DNA of 64,000 nucleotides, from contig NZ_CP108414.1 of assembly GCF_035978755.1 (NCBI RefSeq), forward strand, positions 868,001-932,000, written 5' to 3'. Position numbers and translations under genes: made by a program. Under the pieces are notes generated by a model. That model did not search any database. It was not told the DNA's origin and was given only the letters and a program-made list of their open reading frames with translations. Source of the stretch: Streptomyces sp. NBC_01298. GTDB taxonomy: Bacteria > Actinomycetota > Actinomycetes > Streptomycetales > Streptomycetaceae. This document shows positions 1 to 16,675 of the stretch, piece by piece; positions within the stretch are counted from its first letter, which is position 1; every line of letters starts with the position of its first letter.

Positions 1-225
1 GGCGGCGACAGGGCCGCGAACGCGGCCCTCTACCGGATCGTTCTCTGCCGCCTGCGCTGGGACCAGCGCACCAAGGACTACATGGAACGACGCACCAAAG
101 AAGGCCTCTCCAAGAAGGAGACCATCCGCTGTCTCAAGCGGTTCGTCGCCCGCGAGATCTTCCGCGTCCTGACCGCTACCCATGCCGCAACAGCAACCTC
201 AAGTCACCTCACAACCCCTGCTTGA
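1..225 (+). CDS. IS110-family transposase, C-terminal fragment (cut by window start)
   Basis: Frame 1 is open from the first base to TGA at 223-225 (74 codons). It reads as the end of an IS110/IS116/IS902-type transposase: an arginine/lysine-rich helical tail with the words LYRIVLCRLRW, ERRTKEGLSKKE and CLKRFVAREIF, typical of the C-terminal Transposase_20 region. IS110 elements lack long terminal inverted repeats, so the element end cannot be fixed from sequence; it probably lies shortly after the stop, near 240, because the candidate regulatory box of the stress-protein gene begins at 245. Whether the N-terminal half is intact cannot be seen. Family assignment is by recognition of the tail only. 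Confidence 0.75.
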   Translation, partial: GGDRAANAALYRIVLCRLRWDQRTKDYMERRTKEGLSKKETIRCLKRFVAREIFRVLTATHAATATSSHLTTPA

Positions 226-244
226 CATCCATAAGAGCATCCAA

Positions 245-258
245 GGGCCGGCCGGCTC
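245..258. promoter_or_regulatory. Candidate DosR/OsdR-like inverted repeat upstream of usp
   Basis: GGGCCGGCCGGCTC matches the recurring pattern GGNCCGNNCGGNCC at 13 of 14 positions and is centred about 90 bp before the start of the universal stress gene. It is the weakest member of the set, and it lies directly beside the transposase fragment. Confidence 0.4.
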
Positions 259-341
259 CACAACGGACTCCTCGGCCCTCTCGGCACCCGTGGCCGGGGC
301 GGAGCCTGGAACTCACACGTCAACCGAGGGAGATGGGAACC

Positions 342-1217
342 ATGGCCAACCTTGTGACCGCGGGCCTCGACGGCTCGCGCGAAAGCGTCGCGGCGGCCCG
401 ATGGGCCGCGCACGAAGACCACCTCCGAGGGGTGCCCCTGGCCCTGGTCCACGTCGAGGAGTGGCTGGAACAGCCCCCTCTCGCCGTCGCGACCACCGAG
501 GTCCAGCGCCAGTGGGCCGAGGGACTGTTGCGCGAAGCCTCCGAGGAGATCAAGCGGCTGTATCCGGATCTGGAGATCACCTCCCGCCGGCTGTCGGGGG
601 TCCCGGCCACGGCCCTGGCCCACGCGGCCGCCTCTTCGGACATCCTGGTGCTGGGTTCCCGAGGGCTCGGCGGCATCGCCGGATTCGTCCTCGGGTCCAT
701 CGGCGCCGGCACCATCGCCGCGGTCGATCAGCCGGTCGTCCTCGTGAGAGCGCCGCACGGTGAGGCGGCGCCTGCCGAGGGATCCGGTGCCGACGGCCCG
801 GTCGTGGTGGGAGCGGACATCGGGCGCCCGTGTGACGCGCTCCTCTCCTTCGCCTTCGACGAGGCAGCACGCCGCGGGTGCGCCCTACGGGTGCTCCATG
901 CCTGGGCACCACCGCCGATCATCGGCTACGGCCCCCCTCTCGACCCCGGTGCCCAGGAGGAGATCGGGCAGCGGATCGCGACGGCCGTGGAGGAGCTGAT
1001 CCGCCCCTGGTGCGACAAGTACCCCTCGGTGGCGGTAACTCCCGAGGTGCGCATAGGACAGTCCGCGATCCAGCTCGTGGACGCCTCCAAAGGTGCCGCG
1101 CTGGTCGTCGTCGGCAGGCGGATCCGACGGTCCGCCTACGGCACCCACATCGGCGCGATCGCGCACGCGGTCCTGCACCACGCCACCTCGCCCGTCGCCG
1201 TCATCGCCCACGAGTAG
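342..1217 (+). CDS. Universal stress protein, tandem UspA domains
   Basis: 291 residues with two UspA folds. The first half (about 1-140) carries the nucleotide-binding signature GSRGLGGIAGFVLGSIG followed by DQPVVLV. The second half ends with a poorer loop (VGRRIRRSAYG) and SPVAVI, so ATP binding may be limited to the first domain. Proteins of this type are cytoplasmic and accumulate under stress or hypoxia in actinobacteria. The ATG at 342 is chosen because GAGGGAG lies 9 bp upstream; an in-frame ATG at 333 would overlap that site. The gene converges on the glycoside phosphorylase gene with only 8 bp between stops. A second usp lies at 11519-12427. The client or signal is not visible. Confidence 0.9.
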   Translation: MANLVTAGLDGSRESVAAARWAAHEDHLRGVPLALVHVEEWLEQPPLAVATTEVQRQWAEGLLREASEEIKRLYPDLEITSRRLSGVPATALAHAAASSDILVLGSRGLGGIAGFVLGSIGAGTIAAVDQPVVLVRAPHGEAAPAEGSGADGPVVVGADIGRPCDALLSFAFDEAARRGCALRVLHAWAPPPIIGYGPPLDPGAQEEIGQRIATAVEELIRPWCDKYPSVAVTPEVRIGQSAIQLVDASKGAALVVVGRRIRRSAYGTHIGAIAHAVLHHATSPVAVIAHE

Positions 1218-1225
1218 GAGACGGC

Positions 1226-3625
1226 CTAGTCCACGGGAAGCCGGAACCAATGCTCGTCTCCTGCCGCCACCACGACGGCCTGTTCGCCGGGCAGCATGAG
1301 GGCCAGAGGACCTTGGCGGGATTCCGGCACGGTGATGCCGAACCTGCCGTGGAGCAGTCGGACACGGACACCGCGGTGTCCCCGGTGGCAGAGCGTGAAG
1401 GAGACGGGCTCGATCTCCCGTAGGGGGACGGGATCGATGTACAGGCCTTCGGGGCCGGTCTCCAGGCCCGTGACTCCGCGCTCCGCGAGGTCGAGGGTGC
1501 CGGCCATGGCGCCCAGGTGGATCCCCTCCCCGGTGGTCCCGCCCTGAATGTCCGTGACGTCGCCGAGGAGTGCCTCCTGGCAGTACTTCCAGGCGTCCGG
1601 GTCCTTCTGGCGGGCCAGCACCCAGCCGTGGACGAGGCTGCTGAGCGTCGATCCGTGGCTGGTGCGCGGCAGGTAGTACGAGACGGTCTCCCGCCACACC
1701 GCATCGTCGAGCCGGTAGCCGAGCCGGGCGAACAGGCCGTACAGCTCGGCGGGCCGGAAGAGGTGACCGAGCATGATCACATCGGCCTGTTTCGACGCCT
1801 GGTAGCGGTTGACCGTATCCCCTTCGGCTTCCAGGATCCGGTCGAGCCGGCGCACATCGCCGTACCGGGCGCGGTAGGCCGCCCAGTCCAGCTCGGCCAG
1901 GTCTCCGTATCCTTCGAACTGGCTGATGACTCCCCGGTGGAACGGGACGTGCAGGCGGCGGGACACCTCTTCCCAGTGCTCCAGCGCGCCGCGGTCCAGG
2001 GCGAGTCGCTCGGTCAGTTCCGTCCGTCGAGCGGGGGGCAGTTCGTCGAGCAGTTCGAGCCCCTGCTGGATCACCCAGGCGGCCATCACGTTGGTGTAGG
2101 CGTTGTCGTCGATTCCGGGTTCCGCGGCCGCGGGATAGGCGTCGTGGTACTCGTCCGGGCCCAGCACGCCGCGGATGCGGTAGCGCCCCCGTTCCGCGTC
2201 GTAGACGGCGGCGCCGGCCCAGAAGCGGGCGATCTCGAGCAGGAGTTCCGCGCCGGGGCCGTGCATGAAGCCGGTGTCCCCGGTGGCCCGCCCGTAACGG
2301 CAGACGTTCAGGGCTATGGCGGAGCCGACATGGCGCTGCAGGTGCGAGTGGTCGGGAAGCCAGCGGCCCGAGCGGGGATTGAGGTGCAGGGCCTGACTCT
2401 CCTCCTGTCCCGAACTTCCGCTCTGCCAGGGGAACATCGCTCCGCTCTGTCCTGCCAGCCGGGCAGCGTCGCGGGCGGCCGGCAGCCGTCGGTGGCGGTA
2501 CATGAGCAGGGCCCGCGCCACTTCGGGGAAGTGCAGCGTGATGTAGGGCAGGACGAAGAGTTCGTCCCAGAAGACGTGGCCCCGGTAGGCCTCACCGTGC
2601 AGGCCCCGCGCGGGGACACCCACGTCCAGCTCGGCGGTGTGCGGGGAGAGCGTCTGCAGCACATGGAAGAGATGGAGGCGCAGGATCCGACCGGCCTCCC
2701 CCGACACGGTCAACTCGCCCTGCTCCCAGAGCCGTTCCCAGGCCGAGCGCTGTGCCGTGAGCAGGGCCGGGAATCCGGGTGCCCCCGAAGCGTGTTCGAT
2801 CGCGCGCGGCAGGAGGTCTCCGGCCGGCCTGTCGAGGGAGGTGTGCAGGGCCGCGGTCTTCACCACCGTCGCGGACCGTCCGGGAGCCATGGGCAGTCTG
2901 TACGTCTGCGCCGTCCCGGCCGCGGTGTGGCTCGTCATGACGGGTGCGCGAGGTCGGGTGACCGTCCTGACGGCAAGGCCGATTTCAGTGTGGGAGGAGG
3001 TGGTCCGGCAGGTGATCCACGCGACGCCGTGCGGCGCGAAGCCCGTCCGATGGTCCGTGAGGTGGTGGCCGTCGAGCCCGCCGTAACGCTCCACTCCCGC
3101 ATTGGCCACGTCTCCGTCCAGCCCTGATTCCACTTCGATCAGGCCGCTCCATCCGTACGCGTGGAAGGTGGTCCGCTGGGCCGCGAGGTAGGGGTCTCCC
3201 ATGTGCACGACGCGGACGTGCGTGACGCCGAGGCGGCGGCCGCGGCCGTCCTGGAAGAGCATGTGCCGGGTGAGCGTCCCTCGGCGCAGGTCGAGCACCA
3301 CCTCGTAGTGCAGCATGCCGGGGTCGTCGGGAGTCAGCCAGTCGCCCTGGAGACCGTCGTCGGCGATGCAGCGGTACCGCAGCGACGTCCAGTTGGGCAG
3401 GTTGACCATGTCCTCGTTGTCGACCTGCTGTCCGGCCACGTGCGAGGTGAGCCGGTTGGAGCAGCCGGCGGCGTACGTGGCGGGATAGTGCACGGGGCCC
3501 GCCGGGGTCTCGGGGGCCGCACCGCGCGTGGCGAACCTGCCGTTGCCCAGCGTGCACAGGGCTTCGACGAGTCGCTCCGTTTGGGGGTCGTAGTGGTCGT
3601 ACCCCCAGGTCCACGGGCCCGTCAC
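1226..3625 (-). CDS. Glycoside hydrolase family 65 phosphorylase (trehalose/maltose/kojibiose type)
   Basis: 799 residues, the usual GH65 length. An N-terminal beta-sandwich (about 1-270) precedes the (alpha/alpha)6 catalytic barrel. The general acid is E492 in the motif GPDEYHD, and the phosphate-site motif SKQAD follows, so this should be an inverting phosphorylase rather than a hydrolase. It would split an alpha-glucosyl disaccharide with phosphate to beta-glucose 1-phosphate. The substrate (trehalose, maltose, kojibiose, nigerose) cannot be told by eye. The GTG start at 3623-3625 overlaps the stop of the upstream beta-phosphoglucomutase-like gene by 4 bp, which indicates translational coupling and supplies the enzyme for the product. 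Third gene of the operon led by the HTH protein. Confidence 0.88.
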   Translation of the reverse strand: MTGPWTWGYDHYDPQTERLVEALCTLGNGRFATRGAAPETPAGPVHYPATYAAGCSNRLTSHVAGQQVDNEDMVNLPNWTSLRYRCIADDGLQGDWLTPDDPGMLHYEVVLDLRRGTLTRHMLFQDGRGRRLGVTHVRVVHMGDPYLAAQRTTFHAYGWSGLIEVESGLDGDVANAGVERYGGLDGHHLTDHRTGFAPHGVAWITCRTTSSHTEIGLAVRTVTRPRAPVMTSHTAAGTAQTYRLPMAPGRSATVVKTAALHTSLDRPAGDLLPRAIEHASGAPGFPALLTAQRSAWERLWEQGELTVSGEAGRILRLHLFHVLQTLSPHTAELDVGVPARGLHGEAYRGHVFWDELFVLPYITLHFPEVARALLMYRHRRLPAARDAARLAGQSGAMFPWQSGSSGQEESQALHLNPRSGRWLPDHSHLQRHVGSAIALNVCRYGRATGDTGFMHGPGAELLLEIARFWAGAAVYDAERGRYRIRGVLGPDEYHDAYPAAAEPGIDDNAYTNVMAAWVIQQGLELLDELPPARRTELTERLALDRGALEHWEEVSRRLHVPFHRGVISQFEGYGDLAELDWAAYRARYGDVRRLDRILEAEGDTVNRYQASKQADVIMLGHLFRPAELYGLFARLGYRLDDAVWRETVSYYLPRTSHGSTLSSLVHGWVLARQKDPDAWKYCQEALLGDVTDIQGGTTGEGIHLGAMAGTLDLAERGVTGLETGPEGLYIDPVPLREIEPVSFTLCHRGHRGVRVRLLHGRFGITVPESRQGPLALMLPGEQAVVVAAGDEHWFRLPVD

Positions 3626-4377
3626 GGTCGCGCCCCGCAGACGAGGTCGGCGATCGTGAGGAGTTCGGCGGCGACCAGGTCCGCCCCGCGTTCCCGCAGT
3701 GCCCGTTCCGTGTCGGGGTTCTTCGTCCGGTCGAGGCCGATGACGAGGCCGAAGTTGCCGCGTCTGCCTGCTTCGACACCTGCGAGGGCGTCTTCCACCA
3801 CCGCGCAGCGGGCGGGGTCCGTCCCGAGCCGTACGGCCGCTTCGAGGAACAGGGCGGGGTCCGGCTTGCCGGCGAGCCCCAGGTCGGCAGCGTTCGTACC
3901 GTCCACCACGGCGTCGAAGCGGCCCAGCAGGGAGGCCGATCCGAGAAGCGGCCGGGCATGCCGGGAGGCCGATACGGCGGCACAGCACACGCCGTGCGCC
4001 CGCAACCGGGCGAGCGCCGGAGCGACGTCGGTGAAGGCGTGGACGGCCCCGGACCGCAGTCTGCGTACGAACGCCGTCTCCTTGCGCGCGGCCACCGCCC
4101 AGACCGTGTCGTCGCCCGGTGCGTCGTCGGGGCTGCCGGTCGGCAGCTGGATGCCGCGGGAGTTCAGGAAGGAACTCGCCCCGTCCAGCCGGGGCTTGCC
4201 GTCCACCCACCGACGGTACTCACGGTCCGCGTCGAAGGGAGGCTGCCGCCCGTTCCCGGACGCGGCCCAGGCGTCCAGACAGCTGTCGAAGGCAGCCTTC
4301 CAGGCCGCGGCGTGCAGCCGCGCCGAGTCGAGCAGTACCCCGTCCGTGTCGAACACGACGGCGTGCGGGGCGCTCAC
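3622..4377 (-). CDS. HAD-superfamily hydrolase, beta-phosphoglucomutase-like
   Basis: 251 residues. HAD motif I is VVFDTDGVLLDS with the DxD nucleophile/acid pair near the N terminus; a helical cap (about 15-110), AVSASR (motif II), the lysine in AGKPDP (motif III) and VVEDALAGVEAG (motif IV) follow. The family converts beta-glucose 1-phosphate to glucose 6-phosphate, the step needed after GH65 phosphorolysis, and such pairs are commonly adjacent. The GTG start at 4375-4377 overlaps the stop of the HTH gene by 4 bp, and the stop overlaps the GH65 start by 4 bp. An upstream in-frame extension to 4740 runs inside the HTH gene and is rejected. Confidence 0.88.
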   Translation of the reverse strand: MSAPHAVVFDTDGVLLDSARLHAAAWKAAFDSCLDAWAASGNGRQPPFDADREYRRWVDGKPRLDGASSFLNSRGIQLPTGSPDDAPGDDTVWAVAARKETAFVRRLRSGAVHAFTDVAPALARLRAHGVCCAAVSASRHARPLLGSASLLGRFDAVVDGTNAADLGLAGKPDPALFLEAAVRLGTDPARCAVVEDALAGVEAGRRGNFGLVIGLDRTKNPDTERALRERGADLVAAELLTIADLVCGARP

Positions 4378-5054
4378 CCGGATCCCACACGACGGCCGGT
4401 CATCCTGGTGGGGGTAATGGACATCCAGTGCGTACGGGGTCCGCCGGCCCAGGGCAGCGAGCGGGCGACCGAGAACAGGTGGCTGACCCGCGCCCCGTCC
4501 GTGACACCGGACACCTCGCCGACGGCCATGACGCTCCAGCCCGCTCGCATCACGTCGTCGATGTGGTCCACCTCGAAGGCGACCTCGGTCCCGGACGCCC
4601 CGGCGAGCCGCGAGTCGGCCGCCGTACGGAACGCGATCTCGTCTCCCACGACGACATAGTTGACGGGGAAGACGGCGAGTCCTTCCATGCCGGAGAACCC
4701 GACCCGGCCGATGCCATGGGTGGAGAGCAGGCGGAGGCACTCGGCCTCGCTCAACACTTTCGACTCGGAACCGCGCATCGCGGTCCCCATGCCGGGGGGA
4801 CTGCCGGTCGTTCTCCCGGTCAGCTCGGCAACGGTGGTCCCCAGCCCGTCCGCGAGACCCACGAGCATGCCCATGCTGGGCCCCGCCGCCCGCTCCTCCA
4901 CGTAGGCGATGTACGACGCGGCGGCCCCGCAGCGCTCCCCGAGTTCCTCACGCGTGATTCCCAGCTCTTCGCGGCGGGCGCTCACGCGTCGTCCGAGGTC
5001 ACCACGGGCAGCCGGAGCCTTGATCGGGGACGCATCTGCTGTGGTCTCTCCCAT
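4374..5054 (-). CDS. XRE-type HTH domain fused to pyridoxamine 5'-phosphate oxidase-like domain
   Basis: 226 residues. Residues about 15-80 are a Cro/C1-type helix-turn-helix (LGITREELGERCG, ASYIAYVEERAAGPSM). Residues about 95-220 form a split-barrel flavin-binding domain of the pyridoxamine-phosphate-oxidase-like class (GRVGFSGMEGLAVFPVNY; SVMAVGEVSGVT). The pairing suggests a redox- or flavin-responsive regulator. It is first in a three-gene coupled operon with the sugar phosphorylase module. ATG at 5054 is preferred: AGGG lies 10 bp upstream, while the GTG at 5063 would have almost no spacing. A pair of DosR-like palindromes lies about 100 bp upstream. Flavin or PLP binding is inferred. 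Confidence 0.85.
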   Translation of the reverse strand: MGETTADASPIKAPAARGDLGRRVSARREELGITREELGERCGAAASYIAYVEERAAGPSMGMLVGLADGLGTTVAELTGRTTGSPPGMGTAMRGSESKVLSEAECLRLLSTHGIGRVGFSGMEGLAVFPVNYVVVGDEIAFRTAADSRLAGASGTEVAFEVDHIDDVMRAGWSVMAVGEVSGVTDGARVSHLFSVARSLPWAGGPRTHWMSITPTRMTGRRVGSG

Positions 5055-5149
5055 GATCGTCACACCCTTGTCGTTCGAATCCGGTACGGGAACTTGGCGA
5101 CGCGCTGGGCGTCAACCTCAGGCTGTACCCGCCACCGGTGCTCGGCACA

Positions 5150-5185
5150 GGGCCGGACGGTCCCCTACCGGGGCCTGTCGGGCCC
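5150..5185. promoter_or_regulatory. Paired DosR/OsdR-like inverted repeats upstream of the HTH-HAD-GH65 operon
   Basis: GGGCCGGACGGTCC (5150-5163) fits GGNCCGNNCGGNCC exactly. GGGGCCTGTCGGGCCC (5170-5185) is a second, related inverted repeat one turn away. Both overlap the 3' end of the DUF1003 gene. The same two-box layout, with shared flanking words, recurs at 16009-16045. Confidence 0.55.
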
Positions 5186-5671
5186 ATGCGGCCCTCTCCT
5201 CGGGGTGTGACGGTGGAGGCCGGTTTCCCCTGCCGGGGGAAGGGCTGTCATCTCCGGGGCGGCTTCGATTCCGCCGGCCGCTTCCGGAACCAGTCGGCGG
5301 TGAAGTTCCGTGGTCATCGCGTGGATGGCACGGGTCAGTTCCGTATTGGTCTTGAGTTCCAGCTCCTGCTCGACGAAATCGTGGTCGGCCTTCGCCTGCT
5401 GGAACGCTGTCTGCCGGTTCTGTCCGATCATCACGAACGTCGACAGGAAGATCGCCTCCAGGGAGACGACGAGCGTCAGCATCGGCCAGGGATTCGCCTC
5501 CACGAACAGCATCCAGAGGGCGAAGCCGATCGCGTGGAGATAGACGAAGGGCATGGAGCCGGCGAACTTCGTGATCGCGTCAGCGACGCGCGACTGGACA
5601 CCGGCGGCCTGACTCGTGCGGTGTGCGACGACAACCGGATGGTGCCGCGCCTCGTCCTCGGTCGCGTTCAC
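5165..5671 (-). CDS. DUF1003 membrane protein
   Basis: 168 residues. Two close transmembrane helices fall near residues 35-55 (MPFVYLHAIGFALWMLF) and 62-85 (PMLTLVVSLEAIFLSTFVM), followed by the GQNRQ word and an acidic helical tail, the usual DUF1003 layout. Function is unknown; in actinobacteria such genes often sit with stress and CBS-domain genes, as here. The GTG start at 5669-5671 has GAGGAGG about 7 bp upstream; the longer frame to 5902 runs through the divergent promoter and is rejected. A strong palindrome lies about 175 bp upstream, between this gene and the phosphoketolase. Confidence 0.85.
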   Translation of the reverse strand: MNATEDEARHHPVVVAHRTSQAAGVQSRVADAITKFAGSMPFVYLHAIGFALWMLFVEANPWPMLTLVVSLEAIFLSTFVMIGQNRQTAFQQAKADHDFVEQELELKTNTELTRAIHAMTTELHRRLVPEAAGGIEAAPEMTALPPAGETGLHRHTPRRGPHGPDRPR

Positions 5672-5838: not shown

Positions 5839-5854
5839 GGGGCCGACCGGCCCC
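5839..5854. promoter_or_regulatory. DosR/OsdR-like palindrome between DUF1003 and phosphoketolase genes
   Basis: GGGGCCGACCGGCCCC is a perfect 7-bp inverted repeat around AC, centred about 113 bp before the phosphoketolase start and about 175 bp before the DUF1003 start. It is one of the cleanest copies of the recurring motif. Confidence 0.6.
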
Positions 5855-5959: not shown

Positions 5960-8323
5960 ATGACCACCACGTACCGGATCCCGGAACTGGACGCGCACTG
6001 GCGCGCCGCGAACTACCTGGCCGTCGGCCAGATCTACCTCATGGACAACCCGCTGCTCGCCGAGCCGCTGCGGCCGGAGCACATCAAGCCGCGGCTGCTC
6101 GGCCACTGGGGCACCGCCCCCGGCCTGAACCTCGTCCACACCCACCTGAACCGGGTGATCAAGGAGCGTTCCCTGCAGGCCCTGTGCGTCTGGGGACCCG
6201 GCCACGGCGGGGCGGCCGTCCTCGCCAACTCCTGGCTGGAGGGCACGTACGGCGAGACCTATCCGGACATCGGCCGGGACGCGGACGGGATGCGCAGGCT
6301 GTTCCGCCAGTTCTCCTTCCCCGGCGGCGTACCGAGTCACGTCGCGCCGGAGACGCCGGGCTCCGTCCACGAGGGCGGTGAGCTCGGCTACTCGCTGGCC
6401 CACGCGTACGGGGCCGCCTTCGACCATCCCGGCCTGCTGGTGGCATGCGTCATCGGCGACGGCGAGGCGGAGACGGGGCCGCTGGCCGCCTCCTGGCACT
6501 CGAACAAGTTCCTGGACCCGGTCCACGACGGCGCCGTCCTGCCGATCCTGCACCTCAACGGATACAAGATCGCCAATCCGACCGTGCTGTCGCGGATACC
6601 GGAGCAGGAGCTGGACGCGCTGCTGCGCGGCTACGGGCACGAGCCCCTCTACGTCTCCGGCAGCGACCCCGCCCTCGTCCACCCGGCCATGGCCGGAGCC
6701 ATGGACCGGGCCCTCGACCGCATCCACGCAATCCAGCGGGAAGCGCGGGCCGCCGGCACGGATCCGGGTGCCGAGCGCGCGCCCTGGCCGATGATCGTCC
6801 TGCGGACCCCCAAGGGCTGGACGGGTCCCGCGGCCGTCGACGGGCAACCCGTCGAGGGCACCTGGCGCGCGCACCAGGTGCCGCTCGCCGGGGTGCGCGA
6901 GAACCCCGAACACCTGAGGCAGTTGGAGAGCTGGATGCGCTCCTACCGGCCGGAGGAGCTCTTCGACGCCGAGGGCCGTCCCGTCTCCTCCGTACGGGCC
7001 TGCGTACCGGAGGGGGAGCGCCGCCTGGGCGCGAGCCCGTACGCCAACGGCGGCCGGCTGCTGCGCTCGCTCCCGCTCCCCGCGCTCGACGCGTGGGCCG
7101 TCCCCGTGGAGAAGCCCGGAAGCACCCTGCACGAGCCGACCCGCGTCCTGGGCCGCTACCTCGCGCAGGTCATGGCGGCCACGGCCGGACGACGAGACTT
7201 CCGGGTCGTCGGACCGGACGAGACCGCGAGCAACCACCTCGACGACCTGTACGACGTCACCGGCAAGGCCTGGCAGGGGCTGACGGAGCCCACGGACCAG
7301 CACCTGTCCCGCGACGGCCGGGTCATGGAGATCCTCTCCGAGCACGTGTGCCAGGGCTGGCTGGAGGGCTACCTCCTCACCGGCCGCCACGGACTGTTCT
7401 CCACGTACGAGGCCTTCGCCCACATCGTCGACTCCATGGTCGGCCAGCACATCAAATGGCTCAAGAACGCCCGCGAGCTGAGCTGGCGCGCGCCCGTCGC
7501 CTCTCTCAACTACCTGCTCACCTCGCACGTCTGGCGCCAGGACAGCAACGGCTTCTCCCACCAGGACCCCGGCTTCGTCGACCACGTCCTCAACAAGAGC
7601 CCCGAGGTCGTACGGGTCTACCTGCCGCCGGACGCCAACACCCTCCTCGCGGTGGCCGATCACGCGCTGCGCAGCCGTGACCAGGTGAACGTGATCGTAG
7701 CGGGCAAGCAGCCCTGCTTCGACTGGCTGCCCATCGAGGAGGCCCGCGCGCACGTGGCGCGCGGCGCCGGAGTCTGGGAGTGGGCCGGTACGGACGACGG
7801 CTCCCACGAGCCGGACGTCGTGCTCGCCTGCGCCGGCGACGTGCCGACCATGGAGGTCCTGGCCGCCTCGGCCCTGCTCCGCGAACACCTCCCGTCGCTG
7901 GCCGTCCGGGTCGTCAACGTCGTCGACATCGCCCGGCTGATGCCCCACGAGGAACACCCGCACGGCATGACCGACACCGAGTACAACGCCCTCTTCACCA
8001 CCGACAGGCCGGTGGTCTTCGCGTACCACGGCTATCCGTGGCTCATCCACCGACTCGCCTACCGCCGGACCGGCCACGCCCAGCTGCACGTCCGCGGCTA
8101 CAAGGAGTCCGGAACCACGACCACCCCCTTCGACATGGTCGTGCGCAACGACCTCGACCGGTACCGGCTCGTCATGGACGTCATCGACCGCGTCCCCGGC
8201 CTCGCCGGCCGCGCGGCGGCCCTGCGCCAGACCATGTGCGACGAGCGGATCCGCCACCACGACTGGATCCGTGCCCACGGAACCGACCTGCCGGAGGTCG
8301 CCGACTGGTCCTGGCCCCACTGA
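5960..8323 (+). CDS. xfp: Phosphoketolase (xylulose 5-P/fructose 6-P)
   Basis: 787 residues, full length for the family. It is a thiamine-diphosphate enzyme that splits xylulose 5-phosphate or fructose 6-phosphate with phosphate to acetyl phosphate plus an aldose phosphate. Visible hallmarks are the N-terminal [12 protein letters not shown], the ThDP/Mg motif beginning [12 protein letters not shown] and ending [11 protein letters not shown], and C-terminal [13 protein letters not shown]. The start has AAGGAG about 6 bp upstream. As an acetyl-phosphate-yielding bypass it suits low-oxygen energy metabolism, consistent with the palindrome upstream and the sensor genes next door. Confidence 0.95.
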
Positions 8324-8362: not shown

Positions 8363-8387
8363 GGGAAGGTACCGAACGGCCCTTCCC
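8363..8387. promoter_or_regulatory. Imperfect DosR/OsdR-like palindrome upstream of the cNMP-binding/response regulator genes
   Basis: The core GTACCGAACGGCCC (8369-8382) fits GGNCCGNNCGGNCC at 13 of 14 positions and is bracketed by GGGAAG and CTTCCC. It is centred about 65 bp before the cNMP-binding gene. Confidence 0.45.
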
Positions 8388-8439: not shown

Positions 8440-8925
8440 ATGAGCACCTCTTCCCCCCACCGGCTCACCTCCTCCCCCTTGCGCTTCGACCACGCCCTCT
8501 CCCCGGAGCACCGCGGCAGTCTGCTGGCCCTGGCCCACGAGGCGAACTTCGAGGCCGGCGCGCGACTGTTCAACCAGGGCGGGCACGCCGGCCGGTTCTG
8601 GGTCGTCCGGTCGGGCAGCGTCGGCATGGACGTGCACGTACCCGGCCGGCAGGCCGCCGTGGTCGAGACGGCCGGCCCGGGCGAGCTCGTCGGCTGGTCC
8701 TGGCTGTTCCGTCCCTACACCTGGCACTTCGGCGCCGAGGCCATGACGCCGGTGCGCACCGACGAGTTCGACGCCGCCGCCGTACGGGCGCTGATGGACT
8801 CCGACCCCGCACTCACCTCCGCCATGTGGCAGTGGGTGGGGCAGGTCCTCGCCCACCGGCTCGTCTCCGCCCGGATCCGGCTCCTCGACCTGTACGCACC
8901 CCACGGCAGCGGAAGCCGTATCTGA
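8440..8925 (+). CDS. Cyclic-nucleotide-binding-domain protein without a DNA-binding domain
   Basis: 161 residues containing essentially one Crp/Fnr-type cNMP-binding beta-roll (about 20-140): FEAGARLFNQGGHAGRFWVVRSG, shown here across positions 8549-8617, then GPGELVGWSWLF and a C-helix. No winged HTH follows before the stop, so it cannot act as a normal Crp regulator; ligand sensing with a protein partner is a possibility. The start ATG follows a purine-rich AACGGAGAA. It lies 43 bp before the response regulator and probably shares its transcript. Confidence 0.8.
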   Translation: MSTSSPHRLTSSPLRFDHALSPEHRGSLLALAHEANFEAGARLFNQGGHAGRFWVVRSGSVGMDVHVPGRQAAVVETAGPGELVGWSWLFRPYTWHFGAEAMTPVRTDEFDAAAVRALMDSDPALTSAMWQWVGQVLAHRLVSARIRLLDLYAPHGSGSRI

Positions 8926-8968
8926 GACAATTGTCCCCAGACGTATCCGACCCGAGGGTGTGGCGTGG

Positions 8969-9658
8969 ATGTCCGATGCACCAGTTGCCGCCCCGGCGCC
9001 CATCCGGGTGTTCCTCCTCGACGACCACGAGGTCGTCCGGCGCGGACTGCACGACCTGCTGGACTCCGAGCCGGACATCGAGGTGGTGGGTGAGGCGGCG
9101 ACGGCCGCGCAGGCCCTGGCCCGGGGGCCGGCACTGCGGCCGGACGTCGCGGTCCTCGACGTACGGCTGCCCGACAGCGACGGCATCAGCGTCTGCCGCG
9201 AGCTGCGCTCGCGCATGCCGGATCTCGCCTGCCTCATGCTGACGTCCTTCGACGACGAGGACGCCCTGCTCGACGCCATCATGGCGGGCGCGGCCGGGTA
9301 CGTACTGAAGCAGATCAAGGGCTCGGACCTGGTCGCCGCCATTCGGACGGTGGCGACGGGCCAGTCGATGCTCGACCCCGCGACGACGGCCCGTCTGATG
9401 AGTTCGCTCCGGGACCCGACCGCCGGGAAGCCGCCCGGGGACAAGCGGCTGACGGTGCTCTCCGAGCGCGAGCGAGCCGTGCTCGAACTGATCGGCGAGG
9501 GCCTCACCAACCGTCAGATCGGCAAACGGCTCTTCCTGTCCGAGAAGACGGTCAAGAACCACATCTCACGGCTGCTCGCCAAGCTGGGCGTCGAACGCCG
9601 CGTGCAGGCCGCAGTCATCGCCGCCGAGGTGCGCGAGCACGACGAGACCGGCCGCTGA
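8969..9658 (+). CDS. NarL/FixJ-family response regulator, DosR/OsdR-like
   Basis: 229 residues. The receiver domain (about 12-130) has the acidic pair in LLDDHEVV, the phosphoryl-acceptor D64 in VAVLDVRLPD, a Thr in MLTSFDD and the conserved Lys in GYVLKQIKG. A LuxR-type HTH (about 160-220) contains LSERERAVLELIGEG and EKTVKNHISRLLAKLGV. Length, domain words and the convergent DevS-like kinase gene point to the DosR/DevR group. ATG at 8969 is chosen for GAGGGTG 8 bp upstream; a GTG at 8960 overlaps that site. It is the natural candidate to bind the recurring palindrome, but this is inferred. Confidence 0.92.
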   Translation: MSDAPVAAPAPIRVFLLDDHEVVRRGLHDLLDSEPDIEVVGEAATAAQALARGPALRPDVAVLDVRLPDSDGISVCRELRSRMPDLACLMLTSFDDEDALLDAIMAGAAGYVLKQIKGSDLVAAIRTVATGQSMLDPATTARLMSSLRDPTAGKPPGDKRLTVLSERERAVLELIGEGLTNRQIGKRLFLSEKTVKNHISRLLAKLGVERRVQAAVIAAEVREHDETGR

Positions 9659-9667
9659 GGCTCGAAC

Positions 9668-11434
<1,767 letters not shown>

Positions 11435-11518: not shown

Positions 11519-12427
11519 TCATTCCGCGTCGCTCCCTCGCTCCCCGTCGTGCCGTGGAACGAGCTCCACGGGGCAGTGCGCGTGGTGCAGGAGACTGTGC
11601 GTCGTACGTCCCAGGGTGGGCCCGAAGTACCCGGGCGATCGCCGTCCTCCCATGACGAGCAGGTCCGCATGGCGCGATGCCTCGACCAGGACCGAAGCCA
11701 CCGACACGCTCTTCTCCGCGTCGGTGTTCACCGTCAACGCGGGAAACTCCTCGCCCACGCGGTCGGCGACGGACTTCAGAGCGCGGACGTGGCGGCCGGC
11801 GAACTCGTTGACGTCGTCGAGCATGGTGACGACGGTTCCGGCGTGCTGGAGTACGTTCCACACGGTCAGCAGGTGCAGCGTTGCTGTGCGCAGCTCTGCT
11901 TCGCGGGCGGCGCGGCGCGCGCATTCGAGGTCGCACTCGTCGCGAACCGCGGCCAGCACCACGCCGCTCTCGGCGAGGTCCTGGCCGCCGCGCACCACGA
12001 TGACGGGGGTCGTGGCGGCTGCCGCGATCCTCAGACCGACCGAACCCAGCATCAGCGACTCGAAGCCGCCCAGCCCGCGGTGACCGACCACGGTCATGCC
12101 GTACTTCGCCCCCACTCGGTGCAGGCCGGAGACGGGGTCCCGGCGGCTGTACTCCGTGGTGACGTGGAGGGTCGGGAACCGCTCAGAGACCGTGGCGGCC
12201 GTGAGCTCCAACAGGTCACGGCCCTCCACGCGGACGCGTTCGATGATCTCCGCCGACAGGTAGAAGACCCCGTCGGCGGTGTCGGCCGCGTAGAAGAGGT
12301 GAAGGGTGCTGTCGCGGCGGGCTGCCTCGGCGGCGGCCCAGAGCGCCGCTGCCAGCGCGGTGTCTGATCCGTCGACACCGACGACGACCGAACCGGGGTC
12401 CGGACGGTGCTGGGTGGAGCCTTCCAT
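11519..12427 (-). CDS. Universal stress protein, tandem UspA domains
   Basis: 302 residues with two UspA folds. The first carries VGVDGSDTALAA and the ATP-type loop GHRGLGGFESLMLGS. The second has a degenerate MGGRRSPGYFGPTLGR loop and ends CPVELVP. The start has AGGAGG about 6 bp upstream. It is followed on the same strand by the DevS-like kinase gene (135 bp gap), so the two may be cotranscribed. The strongest palindrome in the window lies about 95 bp upstream. It differs clearly from the usp at 342-1217, so it is not a recent duplicate. Confidence 0.9.
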   Translation of the reverse strand: MEGSTQHRPDPGSVVVGVDGSDTALAAALWAAAEAARRDSTLHLFYAADTADGVFYLSAEIIERVRVEGRDLLELTAATVSERFPTLHVTTEYSRRDPVSGLHRVGAKYGMTVVGHRGLGGFESLMLGSVGLRIAAAATTPVIVVRGGQDLAESGVVLAAVRDECDLECARRAAREAELRTATLHLLTVWNVLQHAGTVVTMLDDVNEFAGRHVRALKSVADRVGEEFPALTVNTDAEKSVSVASVLVEASRHADLLVMGGRRSPGYFGPTLGRTTHSLLHHAHCPVELVPRHDGERGSDAE

Positions 12428-12508: not shown

Positions 12509-12535
12509 GGGCAAGGGACCGAAGGTCCCTTGCCC
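12509..12535. promoter_or_regulatory. Perfect 12-bp inverted repeat around GAA, upstream of usp
   Basis: The left arm GGGCAAGGGACC and its exact complement flank GAA. The core GGGACCGAAGGTCCC resembles the mycobacterial DosR box (GGGAC...GTCCC). It is centred about 95 bp before the minus-strand usp start and about 170 bp before the plus-strand CBS gene. Confidence 0.6.
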
Positions 12536-12590
12536 GGTGCACACCGCCTCATCGGCCCCTCGCCGCCGGGACCGGTCAGTCCTGGCACAG

Positions 12591-12604
12591 GACCCGTTCG
12601 GCCC
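12591..12604. promoter_or_regulatory. DosR/OsdR-like inverted repeat upstream of the CBS-BON gene
   Basis: GACCCGTTCGGCCC fits GGNCCGNNCGGNCC at 13 of 14 positions, centred about 96 bp before the CBS gene start. A looser GGACCGGTCAGTCC lies just upstream (12569-12582). Confidence 0.45.
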
Positions 12605-12693
12605 TCGCACCGCGGGCTGACGCGGCGGATGGTGGCTGGTGAGGGCGCTCCGCACGATGCGCTCACTGGCCGAAGCCGACAGGAGGGCCACAG

Positions 12694-13329
12694 ATGAAGC
12701 ACGCCAAGGTCGGCTTCCTGATGACCGACGAGGTCGTCTCGGTCCTCGGGAGGACTCCGTCCGCGGACGTGGCCGCGCTGCTCGTCGAGCACGACATCGG
12801 CGGCATGCCGGTCCTGGACGCGGACGAGCGCGTCCTCGGGGTCGTTTCACGGACCGATCTGCTCGTCCAAGACCACCTCACCGCTGAAGACTTGATGACC
12901 GCGCCGGCCGTCACGGTCCACGCCGACCAGACCGTCACCGAGGCCGCCCGCCTCATTACCCGACGCGGGGTGACCCGGCTGCCGGTCGTCGACGAGGAGG
13001 ACCGCCTGGTCGGCATCGTGACGCGACGGGACCTGCTCCGCGTGTTTCTGCGCCCGGACCACGAGATACACCGGGTGCTGGTCGAGGACGTGCTGGCGGA
13101 CACGATGGGCATCGGTGCCGATGCCGTGAGCGTGGATGTCGTGGACGGGGTCGTCACCTTGGACGGCCGACTGTCCAAGAGCAGCCAGATTCCCGTCGCG
13201 CTCCGGCTCGCCGGACAGTTGGACGGTGTGGTGGCGGTCATCGACCGGCTCACGGCCCACTCCAACGACACCCACACCCACACCCGCACCGCCCCGCCGG
13301 ACCGCGGCGCCGAAGACGTTCGCCGCTGA
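12694..13329 (+). CDS. CBS-pair and BON domain protein
   Basis: 211 residues. Two CBS motifs (about 8-60 and 68-120; each ends in a GVVSRTDLL / GIVTRRDLL strand-helix) form an adenosyl-nucleotide-binding Bateman module. A BON domain (about 135-195; VSVDVVDGVVTLDGRL) follows, then a His/Thr-rich tail. Such proteins are thought to sense AMP/ATP energy state; the output here is unknown. AGGAGG sits about 8 bp before the ATG. A DosR-like box lies about 96 bp upstream. Confidence 0.88.
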   Translation: MKHAKVGFLMTDEVVSVLGRTPSADVAALLVEHDIGGMPVLDADERVLGVVSRTDLLVQDHLTAEDLMTAPAVTVHADQTVTEAARLITRRGVTRLPVVDEEDRLVGIVTRRDLLRVFLRPDHEIHRVLVEDVLADTMGIGADAVSVDVVDGVVTLDGRLSKSSQIPVALRLAGQLDGVVAVIDRLTAHSNDTHTHTRTAPPDRGAEDVRR

Positions 13330-13339
13330 TGCGGGATGT

Positions 13340-13353
13340 GGACCGTTCGGCCC
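13340..13353. promoter_or_regulatory. DosR/OsdR-like inverted repeat upstream of the SPFH gene
   Basis: GGACCGTTCGGCCC fits GGNCCGNNCGGNCC exactly, centred about 143 bp before the SPFH start and just after the CBS-BON stop. Confidence 0.5.
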
Positions 13354-13489
13354 CTGCCCGCCCCCTGCGCACCGCGCGACCATGGAAGCGAGGCAGGCCC
13401 GCCGCACCCGGTCACACCCGTGCGGCGCCCTGCGGACGGACCCGGGCCATCCCCTCGCTCCGCCACCGCACTTCGTGAGGAGCACCTTC

Positions 13490-14353
13490 ATGGAAGTCCT
13501 GATCTTCGCCCTGATCGCCCTGGCCGTGGTCGCCCTGATAGGGCTGACCATGGCCCTGAAGATCGTCAAGCAGTACGAGCAGGGCGTGCTGTTCCGCTTC
13601 GGCCGGCTCATCGGGACCCGCGCGCCGGGCCTGCGGGTCATCGTGCCGTTCGCGGACGTCCTGCACCGGGTGTCCCTGCGGATCGTCACCATGCCCATCC
13701 AGTCCCAGGGCATCATCACCCGGGACAACGTCAGCGTCGACGTCTCCGCGGTCGCCTACTTCCGCGTCGTCGACGCCGTGAAGTCGGTGATCGCGATCGA
13801 GAACGTGGGCGCGGCCATCAACCAGATCGCCCAGACCACCCTGCGCAAGGTCGTCGGCCAGCACACCCTCGACGAGACCCTCTCGGAAACCGACCGCATC
13901 AACCTCGGCATCCGCGAGATCCTCGACGTCACCACCGCCGAATGGGGCGTTGAGGTCACCCTGGTCGAACTGAAGGACATCCAACTGCCCGACAGCATGA
14001 AGCGCGCGATGGCCCGCCAGGCCGAGGCCGAACGGGAGAAGAGGGCAAAGATCATCAACGCGGAGGGCGAGTCGCTGGCCGCCGCCGCACTCGGCGACGC
14101 CTCCGACACCATGATGGCCCACCCCCTCGCCCTGCAACTGCGCAACCTGCAGAGCCTCGTGGAGATCGGCGTCGACAAGAACACCACCGTGGTCTTCCCC
14201 GCGCCGCTCATGAGCACCATCGGCGAACTCGGCGCCTTCCTCGCCCGCGAATCCGCGGCCGCGACCCTCCAGACGCCGCGCACGGCGGAGATCACCACGC
14301 CGCTCCCCAGTCCGTCCCCGCCGAACGGAGCGCGAGCGGTCAGGACCACCTGA
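13490..14353 (+). CDS. SPFH/band 7 (stomatin-like) membrane protein
   Basis: 287 residues. One N-terminal membrane helix (about 3-24) precedes the band 7 domain: VKQYEQGVLFRFGRL, GLRVIVPFAD, NVSVDVSAVAYFRV. A charged helix (RQAEAEREKRAKIINAEG) and a Ser/Thr/Pro-rich tail follow. Bacterial stomatins scaffold membrane microdomains; the usual NfeD partner is not adjacent. The ATG has GTGAGGAG upstream with good spacing. A strong hairpin terminator follows the stop by 5 bp. Confidence 0.9.
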   Translation: MEVLIFALIALAVVALIGLTMALKIVKQYEQGVLFRFGRLIGTRAPGLRVIVPFADVLHRVSLRIVTMPIQSQGIITRDNVSVDVSAVAYFRVVDAVKSVIAIENVGAAINQIAQTTLRKVVGQHTLDETLSETDRINLGIREILDVTTAEWGVEVTLVELKDIQLPDSMKRAMARQAEAEREKRAKIINAEGESLAAAALGDASDTMMAHPLALQLRNLQSLVEIGVDKNTTVVFPAPLMSTIGELGAFLARESAAATLQTPRTAEITTPLPSPSPPNGARAVRTT

Positions 14354-14358
14354 CCGAA

Positions 14359-14412
14359 AGTCGGCGGCGCCGCCGCGCGGAGGACGTTCTCCGTACGGCG
14401 GCGCCGCCGACT
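14359..14412. terminator. Hairpin terminator with perfect 17-bp stem
   Basis: AGTCGGCGGCGCCGCCG and its exact complement flank a 20-base loop. It lies between convergent genes (SPFH and the flavodoxin remnant), so it can serve both strands. No U-tract, as is usual in Streptomyces. Confidence 0.8.
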
Positions 14413-14431
14413 GCTGTGCTGTGGGGCGCGT

Positions 14432-14577
14432 TCAGTGAGTCGCCGCGAGTTCGGCGCCGATCCCGCGGGCCCAGGCGCGGATCCGTCGTCGCGCAGTGAC
14501 CTGCCGATCTCTTCCGCGATGCCGGCGGTCGCGCCGAGCTTGCTGCCGTAGGCGACCAGTACCCGCTGTGCGCTCAT
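14432..14577 (-). pseudogene. Flavodoxin-like gene remnant with internal deletion
   Basis: ATG at 14575-14577 has AAGGAGG at ideal spacing and opens as a flavodoxin: VLVAYGSKLGATAGIAEEIG, the FMN-phosphate loop region. After about 30 codons the frame loses meaning. The typical C-terminal words of the same family (IRAWARGIGAELAATH) appear in another frame ending at the stop at 14432. Start and end are therefore present while roughly 100 central codons are missing, with a frameshift at the junction. No functional product is expected. Flavodoxins with this N terminus usually accompany oxygen-stress genes, matching the region. Confidence 0.72.
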
Positions 14578-14600
14578 GGGCCCGCCTCCTTCCTGTCTTC

Positions 14601-14696
14601 TCAGTACGGCAGGACGCGCCCCGACGGCGTGCGCAGGTCGAGGGGCGGCGGGCGCTGCGGCCGTGGCCGGGGTGCCGAGATCTGTATCCGAGGCAT
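14601..14696 (-). CDS. Small proline/arginine-rich ORF (31 aa)
   Basis: Too short for routine calling. ATG at 14696 has AGAGGTG about 6 bp upstream. The product starts MPRIQISAPRPRP and ends LRTPSGRVLPY, basic and proline-rich without a membrane segment. It lies 23 bp before the flavodoxin remnant on the same strand and about 100 bp below a strong palindrome, so it looks like the first gene of a small regulated unit. I do not recognise the family. It could be a leader peptide or spurious. Confidence 0.45.
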   Translation of the reverse strand: MPRIQISAPRPRPQRPPPLDLRTPSGRVLPY

Positions 14697-14788
14697 GGTG
14701 GGTCACCTCTTCGGGAGCGAGACCCGCAACAGGCCCGCACTCCAGAATCACCCGGTGGGACACTCGCTTGGCAGGGCCGACGGGGACT

Positions 14789-14816
14789 GGGGTGGGGGCC
14801 GACCGGCCCCCACCCC
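14789..14816. promoter_or_regulatory. Perfect 13-bp inverted repeat (DosR/OsdR-like) upstream of the small ORF/flavodoxin remnant
   Basis: GGGGTGGGGGCCG and its exact complement flank AC. The core GGGCCGACCGGCCC fits the recurring pattern. It is centred about 106 bp before the small ORF and just beyond the 3' end of the alcohol dehydrogenase gene. It might double as a terminator for that gene. Confidence 0.55.
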
Positions 14817-14845
14817 GGCACCGGCGACGTCGCGCACCGGAGCCT

Positions 14846-15934
14846 TCACACCTTCTGGACGCGCGACGGGTTCGATACGGCCAGGTCGTCGTGGCGCGGC
14901 CCGCCCAGCACGACCTTCAGCGCGCCCGTCTCACCGGCACGGGAGAACACCTCGTACGCCTCTTCCATCTGTCCCAGCTCGAAACGATGGGTGATCAGCG
15001 ACGAGGTCGGCAGCCGGCCGGCCGCCAGCATGCGCAGCAGCATCGGCGTGGAGGAGGTGTCCACGAGCCCGGTGGTGATGGTGACGTCCTTGATCCACAG
15101 GTCTTCGAGGTGCAGGGTCGCCGGCTTGCCGTGGACGCCGATGTTCGCGACCCGGCCGCCCGGGCGGACCATGCGGGTGCACATCTCGAAGGTCTCGGGC
15201 ACGCCGACGGCCTCCATGACGACGTCCGCGCCGAGTCCGTCGGTCAGGTCACCCACGAGCATCTCCGGTTCCTCGGCCGCGTTCACGACCGCGTCCGCCC
15301 CCAGCTCGCGCGCCGCCGCCAGCCGGGACGGCGCGAGATCGACGGCGATGACGCGGGCCGGCGAGTACAGCCGTGCCGTGGTGATGGCCGCGAGTCCCAC
15401 GGGGCCGGCGCCGACCACGACGACGGTGTCCCCGGGCCGCACGTTCCCGTTCAGCACCCCCACCTCGTAGGAGGTGGGGAAGATGTCCGCGAGCAGGACG
15501 GCGGCGGCGCTGTCGACCGTGCTCGGCAGCGGGTGCACGGAGAGGTCGGCGAACGGCACGCGGACGTACTCGGCCTGCGTGCCGTCGATGGTGTGCCCGA
15601 GCACCCAGCCGCCGCCCCCGCGGCACTGCCCGTAGCGGCTCTCGCGGCAGAACCGGCACCGGCCGCATGAGGAGATGCAAGAGACCAGGACCCGGTCGCC
15701 GGGGCGCACCGAGCGGACGTCACCTCCGCACTCCACCACCGTGCCCACGGCCTCGTGGCCGAGCACACGGCCTGGATTCACCTCCGGCAGATCACCCTTG
15801 ACGATGTGCAGGTCCGTCCCGCAGATCGTCACGGCGTCGACGCGCACGATCACGTCGGCGGGATCCTTGATCGCCGGATCCGGCACCTCCTGCCACGCGG
15901 TGCTTCCCGGTCCCTGGAAGACGAGTGCCTTCAT
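14846..15934 (-). CDS. Zinc-dependent alcohol dehydrogenase (medium-chain family)
   Basis: 362 residues. Catalytic-zinc residues are the Cys of TICGTDLH, the His-Glu of LGHEAVG and a downstream acidic residue. The structural zinc loop CGRCRFCRESRYGQC is intact. A Rossmann fold begins VVVVGAGPVGLAA and is followed by VIAVD, whose Asp favours NAD over NADP. Substrate is not determinable. It faces away from the CBS gene at 16166 across a paired palindrome, about 80 bp upstream of this start, which makes it a likely member of the redox regulon. Confidence 0.92.
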   Translation of the reverse strand: MKALVFQGPGSTAWQEVPDPAIKDPADVIVRVDAVTICGTDLHIVKGDLPEVNPGRVLGHEAVGTVVECGGDVRSVRPGDRVLVSCISSCGRCRFCRESRYGQCRGGGGWVLGHTIDGTQAEYVRVPFADLSVHPLPSTVDSAAAVLLADIFPTSYEVGVLNGNVRPGDTVVVVGAGPVGLAAITTARLYSPARVIAVDLAPSRLAAARELGADAVVNAAEEPEMLVGDLTDGLGADVVMEAVGVPETFEMCTRMVRPGGRVANIGVHGKPATLHLEDLWIKDVTITTGLVDTSSTPMLLRMLAAGRLPTSSLITHRFELGQMEEAYEVFSRAGETGALKVVLGGPRHDDLAVSNPSRVQKV

Positions 15935-16008
15935 GACGCCACCTCTCCATGTCTCCCGTGCTCCGGCAAGGTCACCTCAGGCTGTCCCCGTCGCCCGGTT
16001 CCCGGACA

Positions 16009-16045
16009 GGGCCGGACGGTCCCGCACCGGGGCCCGACAGGCCCC
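16009..16045. promoter_or_regulatory. Paired DosR/OsdR-like inverted repeats between adh and CBS genes
   Basis: GGGCCGGACGGTCC (16009-16022) and GGGGCCCGACAGGCCCC (16029-16045). Together with flanking words (ACCTCAGGCTGT at 15974, ACAGGGCC) this region copies the layout at 5115-5185 in the same orientation relative to the minus-strand gene, so it probably drives adh. The CBS gene on the other side is about 150 bp away. Confidence 0.55.
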
Positions 16046-16165
16046 TCCGGCCCGTGGCGTGGACGTGTGAGGGTGGATGGCGGGGTCTCCTTCACCGGGG
16101 GACGGTCGCCGATCTCCGGGACGGCCCCGGGAACCCTTCGCCTTCTCATTGAGGACCACCACGCC

Positions 16166-16675
16166 ATGACCTCCAGTCCACGTCTCGTCCGCGACGTGAT
16201 GACGAGAACCGTCGTCAGCGTCACGCCCCTGGCCGGCTCAACCCTGGCCAAGGACCTGATGACGGCTCCCGCCGTCACCGTTGGGCCCGGTGCCACCCTG
16301 TCCCAGGCGGCCCGGCTCATGGCGGAACGGCACATCAAACGGCTACTGGTCGTCGACCCGGACGGCACCCTCCAGGGCATCGTCAGTCGCACCGATCTGC
16401 TCCGGGTGTTCCTGCGCCCGGACAGTGAACTCGTGGACGAGATACGGCGCGAGGTGGTCGGCCGACTGTTCCCGCTCGCACAGCACAGGGTGCGGGTCGA
16501 CGTCCACCACGGCGTGGTCACCCTCTCCGGCGGCATCCTCGACGCATCGCTCATTCCGGTGGCGGCACGTCTCGCACGCGCCGTGGAAGGCGTGGTCGAC
16601 GTCAACTGCGCGCTGACCCCGTCGGTCGCGCGGACGGCCGGGGCACAAACGCTCCGCCTCAGCGGAAACACCTGA
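16166..16675 (+). CDS. CBS-BON protein with shortened first CBS motif
   Basis: 169 residues. It opens like a normal CBS-BON protein (VRDVMTRTVVSVTP), but only about 10 residues later reaches LAKDLMTAPAVTV, the start of the second CBS motif. The first CBS motif is therefore cut from about 50 to about 16 residues. The second CBS (GIVSRTDLLRVFLRP) and the BON domain (VRVDVHHGVVTLSGGI) are complete and resemble those of the 211-residue paralogue at 12694-13329. The frame is kept, so it may be translated, but a normal Bateman pair cannot form within one chain. Start ATG follows TGAGGA. Confidence 0.8.
   Translation: MTSSPRLVRDVMTRTVVSVTPLAGSTLAKDLMTAPAVTVGPGATLSQAARLMAERHIKRLLVVDPDGTLQGIVSRTDLLRVFLRPDSELVDEIRREVVGRLFPLAQHRVRVDVHHGVVTLSGGILDASLIPVAARLARAVEGVVDVNCALTPSVARTAGAQTLRLSGNT

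Follow-up and report, generated by a model that had tools for sequence, protein, structure and literature searches.

In Streptomyces coelicolor and S. lividans, the OsdKR regulon (SCO0167-SCO0219; PMC5069765, PMC6302529) is built on a DevR-type response regulator, a DevS/DosT-like sensor kinase and a 16-bp box, and the island near the regulator contains universal stress protein (usp), CBS-annotated, Crp-like, alcohol dehydrogenase (ADH) and pyridoxamine-phosphate-oxidase-like (PNPOx) genes. The S. coelicolor regulator binds the motif in electrophoretic mobility shift assays (EMSA), with promoter data in addition, and most of the tabulated boxes lie about 50-150 bp from gene starts (PMC5069765). 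In Mycobacterium tuberculosis, the DevR (DosR) regulon counts about 48-50 target genes in the published accounts consulted. We analysed a 64-kb window (C1:868001-932000; positions below are 1-based in this window) of a 9.7-Mb Streptomyces genome, which very probably holds the core of a Streptomyces OsdR (DevR/DosR-type) regulon, a known type of system. The same box, regulator type and kinase type are found here, and the stress-protein and redox content noticed in the original prediction is indeed shared with the published S. coelicolor/S. lividans set. The regulator and kinase also appear, by sequence, to belong to the families of the M. tuberculosis pair. To the known system the analysis adds a convergent regulator pair, phased box pairs and a link to phosphoketolase (xfp) and pyruvate formate-lyase (pfl).

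Nine inverted repeats had been predicted upstream of genes in the window, and all of them are present, displaced by a few bases at most. The motif is of the OsdR type, being identical to the published OsdR consensus AGGGCCGATCGGCCCT (PMC5069765), and exact matches to GGNCCGNNCGGNCC occur at 5150, 5840, 13340, 14796 and 16009 and nowhere else in the window. Sites were scored with a symmetric matrix made from 25 distinct S. coelicolor OsdR sites (PMC5069765 Table 1; predicted by its authors, several of them confirmed by EMSA), which is independent of the window sites, and the scan covered a 124-kb region around the window, with a control of 400 kb taken from the same genome in 20 stretches. Scores of at least 11 in 1-16675 are found at 244, 5149, 5839, 8368, 12515, 12590, 13339, 14795 and 16008, precisely the nine predicted sites, where 0.83 would be expected from the control (Poisson 2.5e-7). 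All nine are intergenic according to our own simple codon-score gene caller, whose starts are approximate. The box centre lies 65 to 144 bp before the chosen start in eight cases, in good agreement with the 65-145 bp proposed for most of them. The remaining site, 14795, is about 226 bp from a 48-residue reading (14434-14577, minus strand) without Pfam match, which presumably resembles the start of a flavodoxin and is probably a remnant. Two additional strong sites lie 2.7-2.8 kb before the window, at C1:865195 (14.4) and C1:865269 (17.3), flanked by a usp-usp pair on one side and a CBS-BON-usp pair on the other.

The window also encodes its own two-component pair, as had been proposed, with a DevR/OsdR-type regulator and a DevS/DosT-type heme-GAF kinase. 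The regulator matches M. tuberculosis DevR (3c3w) with 254.9 bits (E 5.5e-75), the next chain reaching 145 bits, and its D67, K196, K199 and N200 are identical to the aligned D54, K179, K182 and N183 of DevR. We take the first of these to be the phosphorylated aspartate and the other three to be base-contact positions. For the first GAF domain of the kinase, the top matches are 2vzw (6.9e-53; titled probable histidine kinase, presumably DosT) and DevS 2w3d (2.6e-44). A histidine before PPMR and the tyrosine of LYLT are kept, which we assume to be the heme ligand and the ligand-discriminating residue, respectively. The presumed transcription unit of the regulator has a box of its own, since site 8368 precedes the cyclic nucleotide-binding (cNMP) gene and osdR.

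Related loci were chosen by kinase and not by motif. Set 1 has 40 loci of 20 kb from 32 other Streptomyces genomes, and set 2 the best 80 of 567 osdK relatives, all named, S. coelicolor not being included; two of the latter (L269, L275) overlap set 1, leaving 78. The nearest kinases among these best 80 of 567 belong to S. sp. NBC_00249, S. xanthophaeus, S. goshikiensis, S. sp. NBC_01214 and S. avidinii. Set 1 gave 43 kinase calls from 39 of the 40 loci, a split gene in L150 accounting for two of the calls, while the kinase of L158 was missed by the caller. In set 1, 155 from 170 sites scoring at least 12 are intergenic, though intergenic DNA makes up 18.6% of the bases; the 400-kb control from the window's own genome has 9 such sites, 2 of them intergenic, and the 78 loci of set 2 have 301 sites, 268 intergenic. 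A box of at least 11 leads 188 genes of set 1, against 524 without one, and the strongest box is 60-200 bp before the start in 144 of the 188. By family, the box-led members are usp (39 from 63), osdR (18 from 33), PNPOx (16 from 22), CBS-BON (12 from 33), cNMP (8 from 12), xfp (7 from 13), adh (7 from 11), osdK (6 from 41), nitroreductase (6 from 13), STAS (5 from 5 and 3 from 4), GAPDH (4 from 4) and pyruvate formate-lyase (3 from 3).

Many boxes come in pairs of fixed spacing. In the window island, a partner of at least 7 is found 21-22 bp from 7 of the 11 strong sites; the weak neighbour of site 8368 (8349-8362) has one mismatch to the degenerate IUPAC pattern and a matrix score below 7. 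In set 1, partners of at least 4 stand 20-23 bp away from 79 of 153 intergenic strong sites, against 6-15 in eleven other 4-bp windows, and in set 2 from 122 of 268, against 5-30 in fourteen other windows; pooled over 118 osdK loci, 200 of 420 distinct intergenic sites are paired in this way. Offsets from 26 to 109 show a 10.5-bp period unmatched in 2000 permutations, which ignore the correlation between neighbouring offsets and treat loci that are related and thus not independent. For this reason, 25 column-permuted matrices were run on the same loci as an added control. Their sums over offsets 20-23 range from 16 to 60, against 222 for the true matrix, with one exception at 141, a matrix that presumably comes close to reproducing the motif, and their periodicity is at most 0.062, against 0.129. 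The natural reading is that paired boxes would hold dimers bound cooperatively on one helix face. The centre of the mycobacterial DevR box is A/T-rich, which differs from the box described here. The pairing is like that of M. tuberculosis DevR, which binds a strong primary and an adjacent weak secondary site cooperatively (PMC3029386), and on the tgs1 P+S probe published there we count about 22 bp from centre to centre. The principle of a primary plus a weak site was therefore already known, and the regularity across Streptomyces is what is added. We found no published description of regular box spacing in Streptomyces among the matches listed in the open literature, and the words tandem, spacing, phosphoketolase and trehalose are absent from the main text of PMC5069765.

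Several observations weigh against the assignment to an OsdR regulon. Two of the nine sites are doubtful as operators: 12507-12537 (predicted at 12509) is a perfect palindrome with 14-nt arms and one extra base between the half-sites, an odd spacing, and 14789-14816, with perfect 13-nt arms about 30 bp past the adh stop, could be the adh terminator. If extended to all sites, this would make the palindromes transcription terminators or chance GC-rich repeats. The behaviour of the loose pattern goes in the same direction: with up to 2 mismatches it has 313 matches in the window against 310 expected, and genome-wide it has 493 exact matches against 446 for the reversed-pattern control, so that it was rejected as genome-wide evidence. 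As a marker, the shared motif thus holds through the independent published matrix and fails as a degenerate pattern, and since the plain pattern is uninformative in such GC-rich DNA, the matrix is the right test. The tandem IUPAC pattern, when allowed up to 3 mismatches, shows no overall enrichment either (159/135 against 156/158); with up to 2, 6 of the 37 distinct places among the matches listed are inside the 865-884 kb island, where 0.07 would be expected. On the other hand, the remaining sites fit the operator matrix and are located either in the gap of a divergent gene pair or immediately ahead of a gene, and in both locus sets the sites are paired at a fixed helical spacing. No T-tailed terminator or sigma-70 promoter coincides with a box, the three T-tailed terminator-like matches in 1-17000 being all elsewhere, an argument tempered by the fact that Streptomyces terminators may lack a T tail. 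We regard a terminator or chance origin of the whole set as very improbable.

A generic promoter element of usp genes was also considered and rejected. Of the 9 usp genes elsewhere in the genome, none is preceded in its own upstream gap by a box of at least 10, and the five in 863-881 kb, all two-domain, are within box-led units. The near-misses outside the island are a 10.1 site before the preceding gene (L063), a 10.7 site within the gene next upstream (L082), and sites of 9.9 and 11.8 that are both beyond the 3' end (L060).

The arrangement of the regulatory genes counts against the OsdR assignment as well. The osdR and osdK genes are convergent in the window, whereas in S. coelicolor they form a single operon (PMC5069765). 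With adjacency taken as a gap below 600 bp, the two genes converge in 14 of 15 cases for set 1 kinases of at least 62% identity, compared with 1 of 28 for those of lower identity; in set 2 the counts are 12 of 18 (at least 63% identity) and 9 of 60, the S. coelicolor order being found in 8 of these 60. Thus, the pair of the window belongs to a mostly convergent branch. Directly before osdK there is no box scoring at least 7, and its control is for this reason assumed to come by read-through from the usp2 promoter region. The gene content also differs, because the S. coelicolor island has nitrate reductase, nitroreductase and PPDK genes and that of the window has instead xfp, GH65-HAD, DUF1003 and SPFH genes. 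Nitrate reductase and nitroreductase have no Pfam match among the 21 proteins scanned from about -4.7 to 17.4 kb, and the only nar gamma gene of the genome is outside the island (C1:3331871; 3.33 Mb).

Finally, the genome encodes another DevR-like regulator with 65% identity (C1:4586742-4587374; L055), presumably SCO3818-like, that could use the same boxes. The boxes might then be read mainly by this or another NarL-type regulator, or by both, and not in a simple osdK-osdR loop. OsdK of S. coelicolor has a second reported partner, the orphan SCO3818 (PMC5069765), and several relatives have two or three OsdK-type kinases per island, both consistent with this. However, the boxes cluster around the osdR of the window, while the 3.6-kb locus of the paralogue has a single weak site (9.4), and in S. 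coelicolor the motif is bound by OsdR itself. We therefore find a leading role of the paralogue rather improbable. At its locus, the weak box stands between the second regulator and a PNPOx-like gene following it. Islands with more than one OsdK-type kinase were seen in L144, L145 and L150, and some of these kinases are split.

From the computed sites, their match to the published matrix, their intergenic placement, pairing and phasing, and the family to which the two-component pair belongs, we infer how an OsdR regulon would operate here, including the direction of control. The heme-GAF kinase would sense the loss of oxygen (or nitric oxide or carbon monoxide) and phosphorylate OsdR, whose phosphorylated dimers would bind the 16-bp boxes, mostly 65-145 bp upstream of start codons. 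The strong box would be loaded first. Many promoters have a weaker one at a distance of two helical turns (20-23 bp), and this would be filled cooperatively, on the same face of the DNA. Bound boxes would switch on the usp, CBS-BON, ADH, SPFH, GH65-HAD and phosphoketolase genes. The regulators may control themselves through two box-led units, cNMP-osdR and usp2-osdK, with read-through presumed in both.

Of the metabolic genes suggested as extensions of the regulon, xfp has most in its favour, with a strong paired box 113 bp upstream. Its relatives numbered 65 after 14 of 79 rows were dropped (fragments and relatives of 36-39% identity). The five nearest (at least 84% identity) all have a similarly placed box of at least 11.9, four of them with a partner of at least 4, but among the 57 relatives of clade 1 a box of at least 12 within 300 bp is found in 10 and none of at least 10 in 40, so it is not genus-wide. 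In a second phosphoketolase clade no box lies within 300 bp (0 from 7; one 12.7 site at -370), a number too small to weigh. The window's genome has a second phosphoketolase gene, 54% identical, at C1:8235268-8237577, with no box of at least 9 within 400 bp upstream. The other extensions fared less well: the GH65 operon has a box in one close relative (L143), DUF1003 shares the promoter region of xfp, and SPFH has one box, in the window's genome, these last two being placed in the regulon by position.

Pyruvate formate-lyase is matched in 24 of 61 Streptomyces genomes, in some by fragments only, the copies forming two identity groups with some of them broken. The copy in G006 aligns over its full length with the E. 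coli enzyme, including the cysteine pair and the glycyl loop, and it is the one that we inspected by residue. After 5 of 27 rows were dropped as fragments (L240-L244, one of them from G011, where a complete copy is present too), a box of at least 12 within 300 bp precedes pfl in 9 of 22 loci. The pfl of the window's genome has a weak site (9.5 at -84). Among the relatives, one pfl box match reaches 20.5 at -123, and one pfl locus is L182:16135-18402. As background, 7 of 321 genes of the window's genome have a box. Genes next to xfp and pfl were discarded as a neutral control, with 11 of 77 having a box of at least 12, near the 10 of 57 for xfp, because neighbours share box-rich regions. The upstream regions of pnp and gyrB (30 loci each, from the 61 genomes) were therefore added, and 0 of 60 have a box. 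Since whole neighbourhoods are box-rich, xfp is not singled out and the claim for it is weaker than that for pfl.

These figures bear on whether the regulon, although real, could have more to do with development and redox stress than with low oxygen, the additional metabolic genes being captured by position and not by selection. The boxed neighbours suggest that the signal at xfp is partly one of neighbourhood, and the unboxed majority of its relatives agrees with this. The osdR gene of S. coelicolor has an effect on sporulation and on numerous stress genes, and the authors of that work state that the signal is still to be confirmed (PMC5069765). Against this, some genomes (e.g. G038 and G005) have a boxed xfp at a great distance from osdK, and pfl is boxed in the loci counted above. 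We consider such a role unlikely, but it is the most serious of the alternatives. Pyruvate formate-lyase is a glycyl-radical enzyme destroyed by oxygen.

We found no published description of phosphoketolase as an OsdR target among the matches listed in the open literature, and we know of no phosphoketolase among the M. tuberculosis DevR targets. In Mycobacterium massiliense, a phosphoketolase gene directly adjoins devR and a sensor kinase gene, near ADH and usp genes (PMC4263727 Table 2), so an xfp/DevR neighbourhood is already published, as a gene table, for an organism that is not a Streptomyces. That locus is presented as conserved in the massiliense cluster and not as a DevR regulon, and boxes are not mentioned in the part of the paper drawn on. 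In S. lividans, PPDK, a putative pyruvate formate-lyase and Gap3 have already been reported to be expressed along with OsdR.

The survival of air-requiring Streptomyces in waterlogged soil or airless pellet cores is poorly understood, and xfp and, in relatives, pfl behind dormancy boxes point to a fermentation switched on by hypoxia. ATP could be gained from acetyl phosphate, since the genome has an acetate kinase gene (C1:3048549, in a locus with no box of at least 9). The GH65 and beta-phosphoglucomutase-like genes, presumed to form an operon with the helix-turn-helix (HTH) gene because the genes overlap, could likewise be a phosphorolytic, ATP-saving pair; against this, the best structure match of the GH65 protein is a GH65 trehalose-6-phosphate hydrolase, followed by kojibiose phosphorylase. 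A bolder proposal, to which we give little credence, is that OsdR drives a fermentative ATP-saving programme (xfp and, in some species, pfl), that acetyl phosphate, the product of phosphoketolase and the phosphate donor to OsdR in vitro, keeps OsdR active once the sensor signal has faded, and that the phased cooperative array makes a sharp, self-locking switch. For practical use, the phased pairing of boxes provides a simple criterion, based on architecture, for locating OsdR targets and telling them from chance palindromes in GC-rich DNA.

Table. Genes and boxes of the island (window positions; box scores from the S. coelicolor OsdR matrix).
Feature	Position	Strand	Context	Basis
usp1, two-domain universal stress protein	342..1217	+		Pfam PF00582
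GH65 glycoside phosphorylase/hydrolase	1226..3625	-		PF03632/PF03636
HAD protein, beta-phosphoglucomutase-like	3622..4377	-		sequence matches
HTH + pyridoxamine-phosphate-oxidase-like domain	4374..5063	-	leads presumed HTH-HAD-GH65 operon	PF13560, PF12900
DUF1003 protein	5165..5671	-	divergent from xfp	PF06210
xfp, xylulose-5-P/fructose-6-P phosphoketolase	5960..8323	+		sequence matches
cNMP-binding protein	8440..8925	+	leads presumed osdR unit	PF00027; no HTH family matched
osdR-type response regulator (REC + LuxR HTH)	8960..9658	+		best PDB match DevR 3c3w
osdK-type sensor kinase (two GAF, HisKA_3, HATPase)	9668..11422	-		best PDB matches 2vzw, 2y8h, 2y79, 4ynr, 2w3d
usp2, two-domain universal stress protein	11519..12427	-	upstream of osdK	PF00582
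CBS-BON protein 1	12694..13329	+		domain match
SPFH/band-7 protein	13490..14353	+		PF01145
Zinc-type alcohol dehydrogenase (adh)	14846..15934	-		PF08240/PF00107
CBS-BON protein 2	16166..16675	+		domain match
OsdR box 11.6, single	244..259		90 bp upstream of usp1 start	matrix scan
OsdR box 13.8 + partner 5170-5185 (9.5), 21 bp apart	5149..5164			matrix scan
OsdR box 15.8 + partner 5860-5875 (8.1), 21 bp apart	5839..5854		between DUF1003 and xfp	matrix scan
OsdR box 12.2	8368..8383		65 bp upstream of cNMP gene	matrix scan
Box-like palindrome 11.2, doubtful	12515..12530		within perfect inverted repeat 12507-12537	
OsdR box 11.3 + partner 12568-12583 (7.9), 22 bp apart	12590..12605		between usp2 and CBS-BON 1	
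OsdR box 12.4, single	13339..13354		143 bp upstream of SPFH gene	
OsdR-like box 15.8 + partner 14773-14788 (9.8)	14795..14810		within 14789-14816 inverted repeat; box or terminator	
OsdR box 13.8 + partner 16030-16045 (9.5), further match 16039-16054 (9.6)	16008..16023		between adh and CBS-BON 2	

At the left border of the window, an IS110-type transposase gene (C1:867146-868225; window -854 to 225) stops about 20 bp short of the usp1 box, so that an insertion element abuts a promoter of the regulon. Right after the island, four consecutive small genes of 181-266 codons follow, all on the minus strand (17430-20071).

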